Shown here: piece by piece, positions 16,871 through 31,739 of the stretch
Layout: the number at the start of each line of letters is the position of its first letter
How positions within the stretch are numbered: the first letter of the stretch is position 1
Assembly (NCBI GenBank): GCA_021734105.1
Contig: JAIPJP010000011.1
Location: 1-32,086 of the forward strand
Reading direction: 5' to 3'
Source of the DNA: Candidatus Woesearchaeota archaeon
GTDB lineage: Archaea > Nanobdellota > Nanobdellia > Woesearchaeales > SKGA01
Length of the DNA stretch: 32,086 bases
Notes under the pieces: model-generated
What the model saw: the letters and a program-made list of their open reading frames with translations, nothing else
Databases searched by the model: none
Told to the model about the DNA's origin: nothing
Position numbers and translations under genes: made by a program

Positions 16871-18310
16871 ATGAGAGCGTATGATAAAGTAATGAGAGTA
16901 ATCGAACGTGTGGGCATGCTTATTTCTGTAAAACGAGTCCTTTTCTGGGACCAGCGACTGATGATGCCAACAGGTGCCGAACCAATTAGATCAAGAGAAA
17001 ATGTTGCGCTTGCAACAGCAATCCACCGACATCTTATCAGTTCAAACTTAGGAAAAAATATCGCTCAAGCAGAACAAGAAGACTTAACTTTCGAAGAGCA
17101 AGCAACCATTAGAGAAATTAAAACTAAACATCTGCGACTACGAAAAGTCAAACAATCACTTATCACGAAACGAGAACAAATACATAGCAAAGCATTACAA
17201 TCATGGAAAGAAGCATATGAACACAATGATTTCTCACTATTTGAAAAAGATCTTGAAGCAGTCTTTACAATTGCCAAACGATACGGTAAAGCAATCAATA
17301 AAGAAAACCCTTACGAAGCATTACTTCAAGAATACTCCGAAGATCTCACCTTTGAAGAAATAACTAACTACATTAAACCAATTAAAGAAAAAATACTCGA
17401 ACTCCTCACTAAACAAGAAGTTGAAAAACGAGAAGTTCAAATTGACACAACGATTATTCAACCAAAAAAGCGAAGAGAGTTTGGAAAGTTTCTTGCTCAA
17501 AAAATGGGTGTTGACCTCGATAAAGCAAGAATAGACTGGTCAACCAGATCATTTAGCACCGCTTACGGCAGAATAAGTATCGCACAAAGCAAGTGGATTG
17601 ACGAACTACAAACAATCCTGCACGAAGGAGGACACAGCATCTACGAACTTAATTTACCCATAGAGCATTACGGAACGCCACTTAGCGAAACACGATCATT
17701 TGCAATAGACGAATCTCAAGCACATATATGGGAACGACACGTCGGTAGAACAGAAGGATTTTGGGATTATTTTCTCCCCATTATCAAAGAAAATTATCAA
17801 ATACCTTACGATAAAAAAACAATCCTCAATGAAATTAATAGAATAAACAAAAGTCCTGTTCGATTAGAAGCAGATGAACTTACCTACATCGTACATCTTA
17901 TTATTCGATTTGAATTAGAACAAGATATCATTTCCGGAAAATTAAAAGTTAAACATGCCCCGCGAGAATGGAATAAAAAAGTAAAACAATACCTTGGCAT
18001 CACCCCTCAAGATGATCGAGAAGGAATACTTCAAGACATTCACTGGAGCAAAGGTTCTATCGGTTATTTTCCTAACTATATCGTTGGTGTTATGATAGCA
18101 TCCCAACTCTATGCAAAAGCAAAAGAAGAAATTAAAAACTTAGAAGAACAATTTGCAGAAGGAACATTTCAAGAATTTACCCAATGGTTAGCCCAAAACA
18201 TTCACCAACATGGGAAAAAATATCCAACACATAAACTTATTAAGAAAGCTACAGGCGAGGAAATCTCTCCTAAAAAATACATTCAATATTTAGAAGAAAA
18301 ATATTCATAA
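16871..18310 (+). CDS. M32 family metallocarboxypeptidase (Taq/Pfu carboxypeptidase type)
   Basis: The 479-aa protein matches M32 throughout. It has VLFWDQRLMMPTGAE near the start, the zinc motif H251-E-G-G-H255, the third-ligand segment DESQAHIWERHVGR (E281), and the family signatures GILQDIHW and GSIGYFPNYIVG. In the relatives I remember, the motifs read HEFGH and HESQ. Here they are HEGGH and DESQ, but all three zinc ligands and the catalytic glutamate remain. It should remove C-terminal residues from peptides in the cytoplasm. Its 3' end overlaps the convergent ATP-grasp gene by 6 bases. Confidence 0.93.
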   Translation: MRAYDKVMRVIERVGMLISVKRVLFWDQRLMMPTGAEPIRSRENVALATAIHRHLISSNLGKNIAQAEQEDLTFEEQATIREIKTKHLRLRKVKQSLITKREQIHSKALQSWKEAYEHNDFSLFEKDLEAVFTIAKRYGKAINKENPYEALLQEYSEDLTFEEITNYIKPIKEKILELLTKQEVEKREVQIDTTIIQPKKRREFGKFLAQKMGVDLDKARIDWSTRSFSTAYGRISIAQSKWIDELQTILHEGGHSIYELNLPIEHYGTPLSETRSFAIDESQAHIWERHVGRTEGFWDYFLPIIKENYQIPYDKKTILNEINRINKSPVRLEADELTYIVHLIIRFELEQDIISGKLKVKHAPREWNKKVKQYLGITPQDDREGILQDIHWSKGSIGYFPNYIVGVMIASQLYAKAKEEIKNLEEQFAEGTFQEFTQWLAQNIHQHGKKYPTHKLIKKATGEEISPKKYIQYLEEKYS

Positions 18311-19156
18311 TTTTTTTTCATATGAGCGTAGCATTTTCATCACTGCTTCTTGACCAGCAAGACTATTATCTTCAACATCCGCTTCAATTAAATTCCCAGG
18401 ACTGGAAATATTAAATTCGCCAAGATAGGGACCAATAACGTCAACACCAACCCAAGGCACATTATGCTTTCTAAAATAAGGCTCTAACTGCTGAACAATA
18501 CGTTTGTCAGTTTCTGTTATATTGGTTTTATTAGCACTACCGCCAGCAGAAATATTACACAAAAAAGATCCTTCTTTGGGCAATCTTAAAATCGCAGAAA
18601 CAGGCTCATAATCTATAACATTAATTCTCTTGTCACCTAATTTTTCTACACCTTGAATAAAATCTTGAGCAATAACTTTTTGATACGTATCAACATATTG
18701 TTTGACTAATTTTTTTAAATCACTTCTCGAATAATCATCTACTAGAATGTGTTTTATTCCCTTCCCCTGATTTGCATCATAAGGTTTGAAAACAACATCT
18801 TCTTGTGCAGAAACAAAAGCAACTAACTCATCAATATTTTCAGAAAAAATAGTTGTAGGAGTAAGCTGAGGAAATTGAAGTAAATATTCTTTTGATTGTA
18901 AATTTATTTTTGATAAAGGATCATTCACAAAAAGTCGCGAACCATCATTATATTTAGCGTATTGTTCTCTAAGAAACTCTTCATTCCAAGGAATGTCAAA
19001 TCGATTAAAAACAACATGCGCGTCTTTTGTTTTATCAAGATCTTCAGTAAAACAAAGTTCAGTATTAAACTCTTCTTTTGCAACATTATAAATGTGCATA
19101 GTAGAATCCATTGGTTCATCAAGCGCTTCTTTATCTACATAAAACAAAACATTCAT
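18305..19156 (-). CDS. GshB-like ATP-grasp ligase
   Basis: This ATP-grasp enzyme resembles prokaryotic glutathione synthetase. It has VVFKPYDANQGKGI (K124 and the glycine-rich loop), FIQGVEKLGDKRINVID (168-182), CNISAGGSANKTNITETDK (200-218, the counterpart of the GshB N-A/S-A-G-G segment) and GEFNISSPGNLIE (246-258, with metal ligand N249). At 283 aa it is slightly shorter than bacterial GshB (about 315). The start overlaps the upstream GCS2 gene by 26 nt and has AGAGGA as ribosome-binding site, so the two are cotranslated. It should join a C-terminal carboxylate to an amine. The product may be glutathione or another gamma-glutamyl peptide; the acceptor cannot be told from sequence. Confidence 0.85.
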   Translation of the reverse strand: MNVLFYVDKEALDEPMDSTMHIYNVAKEEFNTELCFTEDLDKTKDAHVVFNRFDIPWNEEFLREQYAKYNDGSRLFVNDPLSKINLQSKEYLLQFPQLTPTTIFSENIDELVAFVSAQEDVVFKPYDANQGKGIKHILVDDYSRSDLKKLVKQYVDTYQKVIAQDFIQGVEKLGDKRINVIDYEPVSAILRLPKEGSFLCNISAGGSANKTNITETDKRIVQQLEPYFRKHNVPWVGVDVIGPYLGEFNISSPGNLIEADVEDNSLAGQEAVMKMLRSYEKKL

Positions 19157-20300
19157 CTAAATCTTCCTCTAATTTTTTTGATAAATAAAATCTTAATTCT
19201 GTGCTTCCCTGTGCAGAAATAGAACTATCTTTGTAATAGCCTCCATCTTTTGCAAAAGAAGTTATTTCGTCTGAGAAATTTCTTTTTGAAGTTAACATCC
19301 GCTCAAAAGGGAAAAGAAGAATTTTTTCTTTTTCTAATAAGCCATTTCTTGCAAACTCAACTAAACTTGATAAGTAAGTATGCAATTCACCATCTTGAAT
19401 TCCTGACTCAATTGCTCGTTCTTGAAACTCCAATAATTTTTCAAAGGAAGGTAAAAGATTTTCACCATACAGATAACCATCGTCTGTTTTTGTAATCACA
19501 TCTAGCTGTCTGTTAAAACCAGCGAAGACTGTCGCTAATGCAAGTACATTAGAAACTAAATTAGTATCACAGCTTCTAGATTCAATTGTTTTTTGAGAAA
19601 ATCTAATTGGCCCCCAACACGTATTTAATCGCGTGAAACCCTCATCATTAAAACCATATTTTTTACAAATATCCAACCACTTATCATACAACGTGTCTTG
19701 CCGAACTTCAAGTTCATCTATCGAATATGCATAAGGAAGTAGTTCTCCATATTCAGGGAATTCTTCAAAAACAAGTTTACGATAAATTTCTGCTCGATAA
19801 TTATTTAATGAATTTTTGAATTTGAAAAAAGGACTGCTGGACATTAATGCAAACAAAGGATCAAGCGCAGTCATTACCGTGTGTTGTTTCACAATATCTT
19901 GTTCATACTTATCAATATGAATATGTGTGCCGCAGATATGCAGTTCAAGAGATCTCCTCTCATCACCCAAAATAACATTTTTTTTATTATATCGTGGCCC
20001 TTTTCGTTTTTCAATAACTTCATCACCAATAGGAGTGGAAGGAAGCAAAGACAAATTCTTCTCTTTAGCTAAAGATAATGTGTGTTGCACTCTAGAAATA
20101 ACATCTTTTGCAAGGTCAAGTAAATCAGTTGCAGGCTTACAAAGCACTTCAATCATCGCATTAGATAACTCAGAAACAGCATACGCATCATTTTTAGGAT
20201 GTTGTAACACGTAATCTGCATCATTAGCAATGGATCCAGTTTCATCTACAAGATGAAATTCTATTTCTAGGCCAACAAGAGGGTTAAAAGATGTAGTCAT
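19131..20300 (-). CDS. GCS2-type carboxylate-amine ligase (glutamate-cysteine ligase-like)
   Basis: A 389-aa protein of the GCS2/YbdK group of the glutamine-synthetase-like fold. It has GLEIEFHLVDE at the N-terminus (metal/glutamate site), LELHICGTHIHIDK in the middle, and RSCDTNLVSNVLAL and TELRF later. The frame is open to 20342, but a TATA box (AGTTTATAAATA, about 20341-20352) places transcription start near 20320, so ATG 20300 is preferred. Such enzymes make gamma-glutamylcysteine or related dipeptides. The ATP-grasp gene directly downstream makes a two-step glutathione-like pathway likely. It is first in a two-gene operon. Confidence 0.85.
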   Translation of the reverse strand: MTTSFNPLVGLEIEFHLVDETGSIANDADYVLQHPKNDAYAVSELSNAMIEVLCKPATDLLDLAKDVISRVQHTLSLAKEKNLSLLPSTPIGDEVIEKRKGPRYNKKNVILGDERRSLELHICGTHIHIDKYEQDIVKQHTVMTALDPLFALMSSSPFFKFKNSLNNYRAEIYRKLVFEEFPEYGELLPYAYSIDELEVRQDTLYDKWLDICKKYGFNDEGFTRLNTCWGPIRFSQKTIESRSCDTNLVSNVLALATVFAGFNRQLDVITKTDDGYLYGENLLPSFEKLLEFQERAIESGIQDGELHTYLSSLVEFARNGLLEKEKILLFPFERMLTSKRNFSDEITSFAKDGGYYKDSSISAQGSTELRFYLSKKLEEDLDECFVLCR

Positions 20301-20342
20301 CGCGCGCACCAACAGTAGTTTAAAAAAAGAGAGTGATTTCAT

Positions 20343-20609: not shown

Positions 20610-20627
20610 ATGGGTATTTATTTGTTC

Positions 20628-21032
20628 ATGGTTATCCTTTTTGACCAATTCAACCTTCCAGAGGATATCTTTGAGGTTATCTTTGCAACGATGCAGCAAG
20701 TCGAAGTAGCTCGTATGCTCGTTGAGGAAATGAAGGTCAAAGGTGGCGAAATCGGGAAAACAGAGATGAGCATGTTTGCAACGGCACTTCATGACGGTAC
20801 CAATGTAGAAACAATGACCCAAGGGCCCTTCCGGCAGAAAAAGACGGTGAAAGTATCCTATAACAAACGGCAATTTTACGACCGAATCCTGACCCCTATG
20901 AAAACCATGGGTCTTATCGATTATGACTTGTACAAAAAAACGTACAAACTCAGCGAAAAGTTCAACAAAAATATGATGCGAGTGGGCCTCATGTGGCTCC
21001 AAGAACTCCGTCGACCCCCCCTCTCCCGCTAG
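20628..21032 (+). CDS. Candidate winged-helix DNA-binding protein with atypical composition
   Basis: The frame opens at ATG 20610. The TATA box at about 20593-20601 puts the transcription start near 20622-20628, so ATG 20628 (134 aa, MVILFDQFNLPED) fits better. The C-terminal part KRQFYDRILTPMKTMGLI, then DLYKKTYKLSEKFNK, has the shape of an archaeal winged helix: a recognition helix, then a short wing. No specific family is recognised. Codons use more G and C than the neighbours, and the gene ends in a C-rich tract (PPLSR). Both suggest acquisition or a plasmid/virus origin. It sits upstream of a 12-nt palindrome and a candidate small RNA. Confidence 0.65.
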   Translation: MVILFDQFNLPEDIFEVIFATMQQVEVARMLVEEMKVKGGEIGKTEMSMFATALHDGTNVETMTQGPFRQKKTVKVSYNKRQFYDRILTPMKTMGLIDYDLYKKTYKLSEKFNKNMMRVGLMWLQELRRPPLSR

Positions 21033-21777: not shown

Positions 21778-22125
21778 TTACCATTTTTTAATGGATTCGA
21801 CCACATTCTTATGCCAAGAATTGACTATGCCTAAAATAGTATGACGAAGTTCTTCCTTGTTTTTTATACTATACACAAAAGTATAACCGCCTGCATCAAG
21901 ATTAATTTGGTGTTTTTGCACAAGATTCTTTTCAACTAAACGCTTAATTGCTTTTTGAATAGTTGTTCTGTCTTTTCCAAGTTCATCACCAATGTCTGAT
22001 GCGGATAAAGATTCTTTTTGTTTAATAAGAAATAAAAATAAATTATACTCAGTCCTATTTAAGTCAAAACTACACATCACTATATCTTTAAAATCAATTC
22101 GTTTACACGCAAAAGAAAGACTCAT
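21778..22125 (-). CDS. MarR/TrmB-like HTH regulator in the thioredoxin operon
   Basis: A 115-aa winged-helix protein. Residues about 22-75 read as helix-turn-helix: NRTEYNLFLFLIKQKESLSA, SDIGDELGKDRTTIQKAIKR, then the wing LVQKHQINLDAGGYTFVYSI. Residues 80-115 are a likely dimerisation helix. The family is close to MarR/TrmB-type archaeal regulators. It is third in the trxA-trxB operon, its ATG overlapping the trxB stop by 4 nt. C7 and C18 sit just before the HTH and could sense redox state (inference), so it is a candidate regulator of the thioredoxin operon. Confidence 0.8.
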   Translation of the reverse strand: MSLSFACKRIDFKDIVMCSFDLNRTEYNLFLFLIKQKESLSASDIGDELGKDRTTIQKAIKRLVEKNLVQKHQINLDAGGYTFVYSIKNKEELRHTILGIVNSWHKNVVESIKKW

Positions 22126-23087
22126 TTTGAGCGCTCCTCATGCTCAGTTGTTTCAAGATATTTCTGTGCTTCAAGCGCAGCTATACAACCACTACCTGCA
22201 GAAGTAATTGCTTGTCGGTATACTTTATCTTGCACATCGCCTGCAGCATACACTCCAGCAATTGGAAGTTTTGTATTATCAGTTGTTAAATAACCATAGT
22301 CTGTTTCAAAAAACTCTTGCACAATTTCTGTGTTTGGAATATGACCAATAGCTAAAAATGTTCCTTGCACAGGAAGCTCGCTTATTTCATTAGTTTGCGT
22401 ATCTTTTAATCGAAGCGTTGTTAATGATTTTTCATCACCTAAAAATTCATCAATGACTTTGTTTGTCAAGATTTCAATTTTAGGATGAGCTTTTGCACGC
22501 TCAAGCATAATTGGTGATGCTCGAAAATTCTCGCTTCTATTAATCAACGTTACTTTAGTTGCGAATTTTGTAAGAAAAATTGCTTCTTCCATAGCAACAT
22601 CCCCACCACCAATAATAGCAACTTCTTTGTCTTTAAAGAAAAAACCATCACACGTTGCGCAGGCAGAAATTCCTTTACCCCAATATTCTTTTTCACTAGG
22701 CATATGAAGTCGTTTTGCTCGAGCACCAGTTGCAAGAATAATTGTTCTTGCCAGATAAGTTGTACTATCAGACATTATAGTAAAAGGTTTTTCATGCAAA
22801 TTAACTTTGGTTACCGTTTCAAATTTAGAAACTGCACCAAAACGTTTTGCTTGCTGTCGCATATTATTCATGAGAATAGGACCTTGAATTCCTTCTGGAA
22901 AACCAGCATAATTTTCAACTTCAGTTGTGGTGGTAAGTTGGCCACCAGGTTGCGGACCTTCTAAAATTAAGACAGAATGATCAGCACGAGCTCCATAAAT
23001 TGCTGCGCTAAATCCTGCAGGACCACCACCAATAATTACCATGTCATAAATAACAGGCTGCGAATCTATGTTCGGGTTGTCAGACAT
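22122..23087 (-). CDS. trxB: Thioredoxin reductase
   Basis: A complete 321-aa low-molecular-weight flavoprotein reductase. The FAD motif is GGGPAG (20-25), the redox motif C143-A-T-C146, the nucleotide-binding motif AIIGGGDVAMEEA (about 156-168), and the second FAD motif GVYAAGDVQD near residue 288. It passes electrons from NAD(P)H to thioredoxin, encoded 10 nt upstream. Confidence 0.97.
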   Translation of the reverse strand: MSDNPNIDSQPVIYDMVIIGGGPAGFSAAIYGARADHSVLILEGPQPGGQLTTTTEVENYAGFPEGIQGPILMNNMRQQAKRFGAVSKFETVTKVNLHEKPFTIMSDSTTYLARTIILATGARAKRLHMPSEKEYWGKGISACATCDGFFFKDKEVAIIGGGDVAMEEAIFLTKFATKVTLINRSENFRASPIMLERAKAHPKIEILTNKVIDEFLGDEKSLTTLRLKDTQTNEISELPVQGTFLAIGHIPNTEIVQEFFETDYGYLTTDNTKLPIAGVYAAGDVQDKVYRQAITSAGSGCIAALEAQKYLETTEHEERSK

Positions 23088-23097
23088 TTTATCAACC

Positions 23098-23433
23098 TCA
23101 AAATTTTTCTACTGCAGCATCAATTTTTGCTTTGAGCATATCTTTTGGTGCAAAGCCAACAATTCTATTTACTTCTTGACCGCCTTTTACAAAAAGAAGA
23201 GATGGAATGCCTTGAATACCAAATTGTCCTGCAAGCTGCGGATGATCTTCAGTATTAAGTTTTGCAAATTTTAGTTTGCCAGCATATGCTTCTTCATTAC
23301 TTAATTCTTCAAAGACAGGACCCATCATTTGACAAGGACCGCACCATGGCGCCCAAAAATCAATTAAGACTGCAACGTCTGATTTCATTACTTCTGCTTC
23401 AAAATTTTCTGGTGTTATATGTACTAATGCCAT
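23098..23433 (-). CDS. trxA: Thioredoxin
   Basis: A 111-aa thioredoxin with DFWAPWCGPCQMM (C31 and C34), the cis-proline segment GIQGIPSLLFVKGG, and the normal length and fold order. It is the substrate of the downstream reductase. The ribosome-binding site GGAG (23441-23444), 7 nt before the ATG, is part of the palindrome CTCC-TAAA-GGAG, directly after the leader hairpin. Translation may therefore depend on RNA folding. Confidence 0.98.
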   Translation of the reverse strand: MALVHITPENFEAEVMKSDVAVLIDFWAPWCGPCQMMGPVFEELSNEEAYAGKLKFAKLNTEDHPQLAGQFGIQGIPSLLFVKGGQEVNRIVGFAPKDMLKAKIDAAVEKF

Positions 23434-29586: not shown

Positions 29587-31650
29587 TTACTCTAAAGGAA
29601 TTTCAGACCATAAACTCCATTCATTACTCGGTGCATACGCTCCAAAAATATAATTTGGGGGTGCTCTATAACCTGCAGCGCCACCTTTCCCACCATAAAT
29701 ATTTCCAAATGAGTTACCACCAGTAGGCGCGCCAAAATGATAACCACTACCCGTACTTGCGCCAAATTCACTCCACAACGAATACTGTGTTGAACCTGGA
29801 TTAAAACCTTCTTCCTCATGACCCTCCGAAACAATAGATCCTGAAAAACCCATCTTCTGCATTGCTTTAACACCATCTGCTGTTGGAAAAATACCTTCGC
29901 CAACCGGTAAATGACGATGATCGCCACTTGCACTATCAACTACTTGTACACTACCAACAACACCTTCTTTACCTAAATACTCCATTTGATTCATAAACCA
30001 TTTGTTAAAACGCTGCAAACGATGAGCTTCAGATTCTTGCTTACCCTCTTTAGGAAAATGATTATACCACATCGATAAATGAGCCGTATCCATAACACCT
30101 TTGATGTGTTCTTTAGCCATTTCTTGCATTTTTTTATCATCATATTGACTTCGATATACTGGATCTTGTTTCATCTTTTCAATCATTTTTCGTCGAGAAG
30201 ACTTAATAATTTCAACAAACTCTTCAGGATGACCACCATAACCCGTTGGCCAACCAAGCTCAGGACCAACATAAATAGGATTAGCAACTTGATGACGCTT
30301 TGTTGTCTCCATTGCTTCTAACCCTAGTTCAGCATAAGAATCAAACGTTTTTTGTTTTGCAAAATCTTCAACAGGCTTTACATGCTCCATAGTATCCCAA
30401 ATTGCATTCGCTTGACCATCAGCAGTACTTGCTGCTTCATGAATATGTTGCACACCCATACGAAGTTGATCAATTTGATCTTGACGTTCTTGACTTTTAG
30501 GAATAATATTTCCCCTATTATCGGTTGTTACCAAACCTAATTCTTTTAATTGATTAATATCTTTATTCCCTTCTAATTCGCGATAGTGTTTTTGTTCTTC
30601 TTCAAAACGTTTTAACGCATCAATTTCTGACTTGTAACGCTGAGAATAATAAATAGATTGTCCACGACTTTGCGTATACTGATTTTCTAATTGAACACGC
30701 CCATACCATTCTTCAGGAGAAAGATTCAAACCTAATTCTTTATTTCGCTCTTGCGCATAAGTTTTAAAAGCACGCCAATCAAGCTGACGAGACTTAAATT
30801 CTTTGCTCGCATCATCCCAAACAGGAACTCTATTCATTAAAAATTCTTTACTTGTCGGATCACCAGATAATTTATTTCCATGAATATCTAAATAATCTCC
30901 CTTATTATACGTTATACCGTCTTCACCAACACCGTGACTGTCTGCTCGCCTCCATTCAGGAACAGCAATCATAGCATTACCTCTTGCCCTGTCAAGTTGA
31001 CCGGTTTGAAATTGTTGCACTACATTACCCGTTCTGTCATCAACCAAGGTTTTTACAACATCTTTATTTTCATCCCAACCATCAAAATCAATAAACTTAT
31101 TTTTTCCTTTATTAAAATTAGCATCACCAATACCACGAGTAAATTCTTGACTCCAAATATCAACACCCCCTCCAGCACCAATATCAGCTGCAAAAACAAT
31201 AGCATCACGCACATGCTGCATGTCAGACTTACGCTTCTGCTCGCTAAAACCACCCTGACGAGGATCAAAACCACTTAAGTTTGTCATGTCTTGCGGAGAA
31301 AACTCTAAACCTTCCCAGGTAGCCCCACTTGCCTTGAGTACTTCTTTAATTGCTTGACGCTTCTCTTTACCAATGCTAGAAACACCGCCGCCCATTTGCG
31401 TACCAACAGGCGTACTTAATGCAAGTTGCAAAACACCTGTTCCTTTACGAATAGAAGACAACATACTACCCAACACATCAGCTTGTCCTTGTGGATTATT
31501 CTCGCCGAACGTAGCACCTAATTTACTAATAGGAATAATGGGTTCGCTTAGCTTTGGAGCGCCCTGACTTCCCGTTGTTTTGCCAGAAAGAAAACGATTC
31601 TGTTCTTGCGGCATCATATAACGATCAAGATTAGTATAGTAACTAGTCAT
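29587..31650 (-). CDS. Large xylose-isomerase-like TIM-barrel protein with insertion and Gly-rich tail
   Basis: The frame opens at ATG 31701. TTTATAAA (about 31673-31680) lies 26 nt upstream of the ATG at 31650, so the 687-aa form is preferred. Residues about 65-175 (ATWEGLEFSPQDMTNLSG, then VRDAIVFAADIGAGGGVDIW) look like the first strands of a sugar-isomerase/AP-endonuclease-type barrel. Residues about 455-615 give its metal-binding half: YVGPELGW (E464), MDTAHLSMW (D521, H524), GDHRHLPVGEG (577-586) and IVSEGHEE (E609). The middle 200+ residues are an insertion. The last ~66 residues are Gly/Ser/Tyr-rich and contain SLWSE twice. There is no signal peptide. Substrate and function are unknown. 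Confidence 0.7.
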   Translation of the reverse strand: MTSYYTNLDRYMMPQEQNRFLSGKTTGSQGAPKLSEPIIPISKLGATFGENNPQGQADVLGSMLSSIRKGTGVLQLALSTPVGTQMGGGVSSIGKEKRQAIKEVLKASGATWEGLEFSPQDMTNLSGFDPRQGGFSEQKRKSDMQHVRDAIVFAADIGAGGGVDIWSQEFTRGIGDANFNKGKNKFIDFDGWDENKDVVKTLVDDRTGNVVQQFQTGQLDRARGNAMIAVPEWRRADSHGVGEDGITYNKGDYLDIHGNKLSGDPTSKEFLMNRVPVWDDASKEFKSRQLDWRAFKTYAQERNKELGLNLSPEEWYGRVQLENQYTQSRGQSIYYSQRYKSEIDALKRFEEEQKHYRELEGNKDINQLKELGLVTTDNRGNIIPKSQERQDQIDQLRMGVQHIHEAASTADGQANAIWDTMEHVKPVEDFAKQKTFDSYAELGLEAMETTKRHQVANPIYVGPELGWPTGYGGHPEEFVEIIKSSRRKMIEKMKQDPVYRSQYDDKKMQEMAKEHIKGVMDTAHLSMWYNHFPKEGKQESEAHRLQRFNKWFMNQMEYLGKEGVVGSVQVVDSASGDHRHLPVGEGIFPTADGVKAMQKMGFSGSIVSEGHEEEGFNPGSTQYSLWSEFGASTGSGYHFGAPTGGNSFGNIYGGKGGAAGYRAPPNYIFGAYAPSNEWSLWSEIPLE

Positions 31651-31672
31651 ACTCTCTTCATAGAAGATATCA

Positions 31673-31680
31673 TTTATAAA
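31673..31680 (-). promoter_or_regulatory. TATA box of the large TIM-barrel gene
   Basis: TTTATAAA centred about 27 nt upstream of ATG 31650. It lies downstream of the alternative ATG at 31701, which would then not be transcribed. Confidence 0.6.
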
Positions 31681-31739
31681 CGTGTTGCTTACTAGGCCCA
31701 TATTATCAAAGCACCACCTTCAAGCAAAATAATAGAACT

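Follow-up and report, generated by a model that had tools for sequence, protein, structure and literature searches.

Two ligases that resemble the enzymes of glutathione synthesis are encoded side by side in an archaeon. Do they make glutathione? The genes lie in a stretch of 32,086 nucleotides (the window), which is contig 11 (JAIPJP010000011.1, assembly GCA_021734105.1) of a Candidatus Woesearchaeota genome of 1.07 Mb that is about 97% complete. One gene encodes a ligase of the GCS2 family, and the other encodes an ATP-grasp ligase that is similar to the glutathione synthetase GshB. We consider it an even bet that the two enzymes form a two-step, non-ribosomal amide-ligase module whose gamma-glutamyl-type product is something other than glutathione. 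We infer that the product is not glutathione because the ATP-grasp protein has lost the equivalent of the catalytic-loop Arg233 as well as the PT[GC] motif and falls in a separate clade, and because the partners of the GCS2 enzymes are exchangeable. To label the pair automatically as a glutathione pathway would be misleading.

Two overlapping ligase genes

The elements of the pair, in coordinates of the window, are:

19131 to 20300, minus strand: first gene of the pair, a GCS2-fold carboxylate-amine ligase (gamma-glutamyl ligase-like) of 389 amino acids, identified by PF04107, an AlphaFold2 model, and conserved residues
18305 to 19156, minus strand: second gene, a GshB-like ATP-grasp ligase of 283 amino acids, identified by PF02955 and its match to the structure 1gsa
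19131 to 19156, minus strand: overlap of the two reading frames, exactly 26 nucleotides by their coordinates
19166 to 19169, minus strand: GAGG, read from the sequence as Shine-Dalgarno-like, 10 to 13 nucleotides 5' of the ATP-grasp start codon
20345 to 20352, minus strand: TTTATAAA, read from the sequence as TATA-box-like and a putative promoter element, 45 to 52 nucleotides upstream of the preferred GCS2 start

The original prediction described a GCS2-type ligase and a GshB-like ATP-grasp enzyme that overlap by 26 nucleotides and are cotranslated in a DPANN-type genome. The reading-frame coordinates and Pfam matches bear out the first part. The overlap and the GAGG element support cotranslation in this Woesearchaeota genome, and together they would fit translational coupling. 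The longest open reading frame (ORF) for the GCS2 gene runs from 19131 to 20342 on the minus strand (403 amino acids), but the ATG at 20300 is more likely to be the start, because the orthologues begin there and because the TATA-like element lies 45 to 52 nucleotides upstream of it.

Judging from gene order, the pair is not a chance arrangement of ORFs, because orthologous genes are neighbors on the same strand in two other genomes. In G052 (G and L numbers are our handles for genomes and loci), the GCS2 and ATP-grasp proteins are 40% and 43% identical to those of the window, respectively, and in G102 they are 33% and 36% identical. These are the only two further Woesearchaeota genomes in which we found orthologous pairs, and homology searches detected neither gene in two genomes of the same genus or in one of the same family. 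In both G052 and G102, a divergent regulator with a double helix-turn-helix, similar to Lrp/AsnC, precedes the GCS2 gene; next to the window pair there is none. The operon in G052 (L027:8817-10080) also continues past the pair, with an amidohydrolase (PF04909) and a 163-amino-acid ORF that has no Pfam match and that could be a substrate or an accessory protein.

The GCS2 protein has the fold and the conserved acidic, histidine, and arginine residues of a GCS2-type glutamate-cysteine ligase. It matches PF04107 with E = 5.7e-11 (42.8 bits, above the cut-off of 21), although the match spans only its N-terminal part. The best match of its AlphaFold2 model (pLDDT 76, pTM 0.82) in the PDB is YbdK (1r8g; E = 9.4e-11, TM scores of 0.62 and 0.68), followed by glutamate-cysteine ligases from plants and E. 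coli and then by Dop, PafA, and glutamine synthetases. The enzyme looks active, because the residues of catalytic type (E12, E14, E51, H126, H128, R169, T238, E240, and R242) are each kept in 75 or 76 of 77 relatives. It is nevertheless not a recognizable member of any of the curated families that we compared it with. Against models of glutamate-cysteine ligases, it scores 14 to 39 bits while the cut-offs are 332 to 437, which is short of the equivalog level; it scores 53 bits against PRK13515 (cut-off 371); and it scores 39.1 bits against the YbdK model TIGR02050 (cut-off 176.4), even though YbdK is the best match by fold.

Comparison with glutathione synthetase

The ATP-grasp protein contains the GSH-S_ATP domain (PF02955, E = 1.8e-37), and compared with GshB it has a shorter N-terminal domain. 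Against the two models of glutathione synthase, it reaches only about half of the cut-offs: 144.7 bits for TIGR01380 (cut-off 299.05) and 148.2 bits for NF003573 (cut-off 272). Its archaeal origin does not explain the low scores, because GshB proteins from three other genomes of the order Woesearchaeales (G178, G146, and G032), which are encoded next to a PF08886-type GshA, score 293 to 307 bits on NF003573. Nor is it a recognizable member of rimK_fam (51.7 bits, cut-off 143.4) or MptN (66.9 bits, cut-off 350).

Two sites set the protein apart from GshB. Where E. coli GshB has Arg233 in its flexible catalytic loop, the pair proteins have leucine or isoleucine, and a second group of ATP-grasp proteins (pair2, from G064, G190, and G351) has valine or threonine; three alignments agree on this. 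Seven of eight canonical GshB proteins have arginine there (the eighth is ambiguous, as the site is beside masked bases), as do RimK and QEGLA-type proteins. Arg233 is critical in E. coli GshB, to go by the title of Tanaka et al. 1992 as it is cited in PMC5774706. Also, the canonical motif EINVT[SC]PT[GC], close to the active site, reads ExNxxxPG in the pair: ExN is kept, while PT[GC] is reduced to PG. PT[GC] is lost in pair2 as well. In a tree of 25 ATP-grasp proteins, the clade of canonical GshB (support 90/87) excludes the pair (100/98), which forms one group with pair2 (87/84). These comparisons do not support the claim of a complete glutathione pathway.

We also looked for enzymes that use or recycle glutathione in the window genome. 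A domain search found no glutathione S-transferase (GST_N). The sole match to the glutaredoxin family (PF00462) is thioredoxin-like and adjoins a CcdA/DsbD-like gene, so we found no typical glutaredoxin. The best match to the glutathione reductase model NF004776 is the thioredoxin reductase of the window, with 40 bits against a cut-off of 480. Because the genome is about 97% complete, the absence of these enzymes is likely but not certain. A glutathione economy in this genome is unsupported.

A 2020 review knew of no archaeal GshB (PMC7278568). PF08886-type GshA genes adjoin GshB genes at L041:32-2112 and L049:4778-6915 in G178, at L045:1438-3584 and L053:3734-5880 in G146, and at L038:30-2212 in G032. 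The GshA of G146 passes the TIGR02049 cut-off, and those of G178 and G032 were recognized by eye. Contamination is unlikely for G178 and G146 because archaeal genes, similar to Bud32 and S3Ae (named by eye), are nearby. We had considered contrasting these three genomes with the window genome on the basis of their full-length matches to glutathione reductase, but we dropped this: the matches are probably dihydrolipoyl dehydrogenases, because their N-termini read GGICLN.GCIP[ST]KA and because an acyltransferase-like gene is adjacent in L209.

Exchangeable partners across the Woesearchaeales

The GCS2 enzyme is more widespread than the pair. At E <= 1e-25, 85 of 353 genomes of the order have relatives of it, mostly without a GshB-like partner. 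We scored the partners in 75 non-redundant neighborhoods. An EgtC-like Ntn amidase is within two ORFs of GCS2 in 18 cases and further off in 4. Three other partner types were never further off than two ORFs: N-formylglutamate-amidohydrolase (FGase)-like proteins were found in 14 cases, C39/DUF3335-like peptidases in 13, and ATP-grasp proteins in 9. Because GCS2 loci supplied the seeds for some of the hidden Markov models for neighbors, adjacency is overcounted for FGase and for the regulator; the Ntn proteins, which start with MCRM, were not seeded by position. The exchanged partners also include a RimK-like ATP-grasp, a MATCAP-like carboxypeptidase (L136), an amidohydrolase, and a permuted ATP-grasp-like ligase (L143, L150, and L174), whose family match is below the curated cut-off.

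In the GCS2 tree, the window protein clusters with those of G052 and G102 (SH-aLRT 96), and the next relatives have FGase or Ntn partners. Across this tree, the partner labels require 20 changes, versus 43 if the labels are shuffled, so partners are inherited in part and have been exchanged repeatedly. A single clade of just the six GCS2 proteins with ATP-grasp partners is rejected (p = 8e-5). If two relatives with a permuted ATP-grasp partner are added, then a single clade is not rejected (p = 0.61), so the couple could have arisen once and the partner could have been lost.

Several arrangements recur. A two-gene unit of GCS2 and an FGase-like protein is found in L029-L032, L034, L035, L064, L137, L164, L165, L167, L168, L170, and L171. 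GCS2 with the EgtC-like Ntn amidase, often along with a DUF3335/C39-like peptidase, is found in L142, L143, L148, L156, L172, L173, L177-L182, and others, and recalls EgtA-EgtC. A MATCAP/QEGLA carboxypeptidase adjoins a GshB-like ATP-grasp at L097:1126-4870 (a plasmid of Aminobacter), L055:5460-7749 (G178), L185:3534-5657 (G136), and L136:2590-5731 (G064). This couple, which looks like an add-and-remove system, is accompanied by GCS2 in L136 and by FGase on the Aminobacter plasmid. In the literature that we searched, we found no description of the pair or of the combination of GCS2 with FGase, though the survey by Iyer et al. 2009 might mention them.

How would such a module work? We propose that the GCS2-fold enzyme, at the expense of ATP, would link a side-chain carboxylate (that of glutamate, at the gamma position, is the likeliest) with the amino group of an amino acid or another amine. 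The GshB-like enzyme, made from the same message, would then activate the free carboxylate of that product and add a second amine. The result would be a gamma-glutamyl-type, tripeptide-like compound. The pair would work like the GshA-GshB pathway without being a member of it, and it would be one variant of GCS2-centered operons that are specific to Woesearchaeales and whose second enzyme has been replaced on several occasions.

Operons that link COOH-NH2 ligases with ATP-grasp ligases, for ligations in succession, are an established pattern (PMC4431377). Like the amidoligase operons of Iyer et al. 2009, as they are described in that paper, the pair consists of linked ligases that are thought to act in sequence. 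Unlike them, its GCS2 clade was found only in Woesearchaeales, aside from distant relatives in haloarchaea, Nostoc, and bacteria. The GshA-GshB pathway (a GCS2- or PF08886-type GshA with an E. coli-type GshB) has the same two ligase folds side by side and shares the GCS2 catalytic residues and the ATP-grasp core, but it differs from the pair in the features of the ATP-grasp protein given above, and the window genome has few glutathione-using enzymes. The YbdK family (TIGR02050; PDB 1r8g and 1tt4) has the nearest fold and is among the profile families that best match the GCS2 protein; in contrast, that protein is in a distinct archaeal clade and is paired with a second ligase. The operon on the Aminobacter plasmid pANY103b (FGase, QEGLA/MATCAP, and a PRK12458-type GshB-like protein) shares these partner types, but it has no GCS2 enzyme and its ATP-grasp protein keeps arginine at the Arg233 position.

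Alternatives, origin, and meaning

A diverged but genuine glutathione pathway, in which the GCS2 enzyme makes gamma-Glu-Cys and the ATP-grasp enzyme adds glycine, seems unlikely to us. It is what the family names and the gene order would suggest, and several observations weigh against our own reading. The best match of the ATP-grasp protein among solved structures is E. coli GshB (1gsa, E = 3.4e-27), and it keeps the N-terminal DS[ST] motif. It keeps the ATP-grasp lysines (E. coli positions K125 and K160) and GDKR as well. Its AlphaFold2 model, based on three sequences, is too poor for use (pLDDT 47), and the counts of FGase neighbors have the bias mentioned above. Furthermore, the sequence of the GCS2 site cannot tell cysteine from another amine, and we infer the substrates. 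Low identity is not decisive either, given that a haloarchaeal gshA restores glutathione synthesis in a gshA mutant of E. coli at only 15% identity (PMC7278568). On the other hand, a true GshB from the same order passes NF003573 while this one reaches half of the cut-off on both models, Arg233 and PT[GC] are missing, the clade is separate, the glutathione-using enzymes did not turn up in the genome, and most relatives of the GCS2 enzyme have no GshB-like partner.

The exchanged partners bring up two other possibilities. The ligases could tag a peptide or a protein with a glutamyl or short peptide tail, which the FGase, MATCAP, Ntn, or C39-like enzymes of related operons would remove. Related loci do have amidase and carboxypeptidase partners, including the MATCAP-like gene that adjoins both GCS2 and ATP-grasp in L136; FGase, QEGLA/MATCAP, and GshB-like genes are together in the Aminobacter operon; and Dop and PafA have the same fold as the GCS2 protein. 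Yet the pair has no conserved association with a gene for a substrate protein or peptide, in the window none of the putative removers adjoins it, and the GCS2 model is closer to YbdK and to glutamate-cysteine ligases than it is to PafA or Dop, so we doubt this explanation. Alternatively, gamma-glutamylation might be transient, as with EgtA and EgtC of ergothioneine synthesis: GCS2 would attach a glutamate that serves as a handle or protecting group, the partner would modify the adduct, and a hydrolase would remove the glutamate. Many relatives pair GCS2 with the MCRM-start protein, which is a GATase_4 protein with a weak match to EgtC (39 to 53 bits, below the cut-off of 218.65), and others pair it with the FGase-like amidase. 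But the only GATase_4 match in the window genome is GlmS, which leaves it without an EgtC-like amidase; no amidase is beside the pair; and other genes for ergothioneine did not turn up, though no search was aimed at them. We think that this scenario is improbable for the window. Grouping with peptide-tailoring ligases, which the original prediction took as a sign against its glutathione-like pathway, is seen in part in the gene context, and not strictly in the phylogeny. A novel gamma-glutamyl peptide, which was among the options it offered, is supported.

Where did the pair come from? It is on an archaeal contig, because its neighbors in the window include archaeal-type ribosomal proteins, an NFACT-type protein, and a diphthine synthase-like gene (the ribosomal and diphthine synthase-like genes were named by eye). 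In base composition the pair does not stand out within the window and shows no sign of horizontal transfer: the GC content of the two genes is 0.32 to 0.33, as compared to 0.36 for the window, and GC at third codon positions is 0.18 to 0.21, which is close to the neighboring genes for thioredoxin reductase, thioredoxin, DHH, and S15. In the collections that we searched, the best matches to the GCS2 protein outside of the order are proteins from haloarchaeal plasmids. A scan of genome contigs with a single GCS2 sequence found no relative. Another scan of genome contigs returned only Woesearchaeota proteins and distant, YbdK-like proteins from Actinobacteria (Streptomyces/Aeromicrobium; 23 to 30% identity). 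A recent transfer from bacteria, which had been thought likely, is not supported by these haloarchaeal and actinobacterial matches or by the base composition. Scans of viral contigs with alignments of both GCS2 and ATP-grasp found no relatives. We rejected the ATP-grasp matches from phage and plasmids as relatives of the pair, because they come from gshB genes of the ordinary bacterial kind or from PRK12458-type genes. The haloarchaeal plasmids (L086, L087, L089, and L090) carry single GCS2 genes rather than operons, and several of these genes adjoin transporters for ions, amino acids, or other compounds.

Other features of the window are as follows:

22122 to 23087: thioredoxin reductase, passes its NCBIfam cut-off
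23098 to 23433: thioredoxin, passes its NCBIfam cut-off
20610 to 21032, plus strand, beside the pair: 140-amino-acid protein with no significant Pfam match
29587 to 31701, minus strand: 704-amino-acid protein with an AP-endonuclease-2/xylose-isomerase-like domain that is confined to its C-terminal part (residues 525 to 631)

Thus, the thioredoxin and thioredoxin reductase that had been reported here are genuine. Genes resembling that for the 140-amino-acid protein are also near GCS2 genes in L032, L034, and L175.

It is possible, and we offer it tentatively, that Woesearchaeales use GCS2-centered operons to make an undescribed family of small gamma-glutamyl compounds, which might include low-molecular-weight thiols. 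The second enzyme would be exchangeable: a GshB-like, RimK-like, or permuted ATP-grasp, or else a hydrolase similar to N-formylglutamate amidohydrolase, EgtC, or C39. The pair in the window would be the form with two consecutive ligases. Little is known about thiol chemistry or small-peptide metabolism in DPANN archaea. Our data point to a widespread family of ligases in Woesearchaeales with exchangeable partners, and separately, a few Woesearchaeota carry bacterial-type GshA and GshB. Both groups define the genomes in which each compound is best studied.

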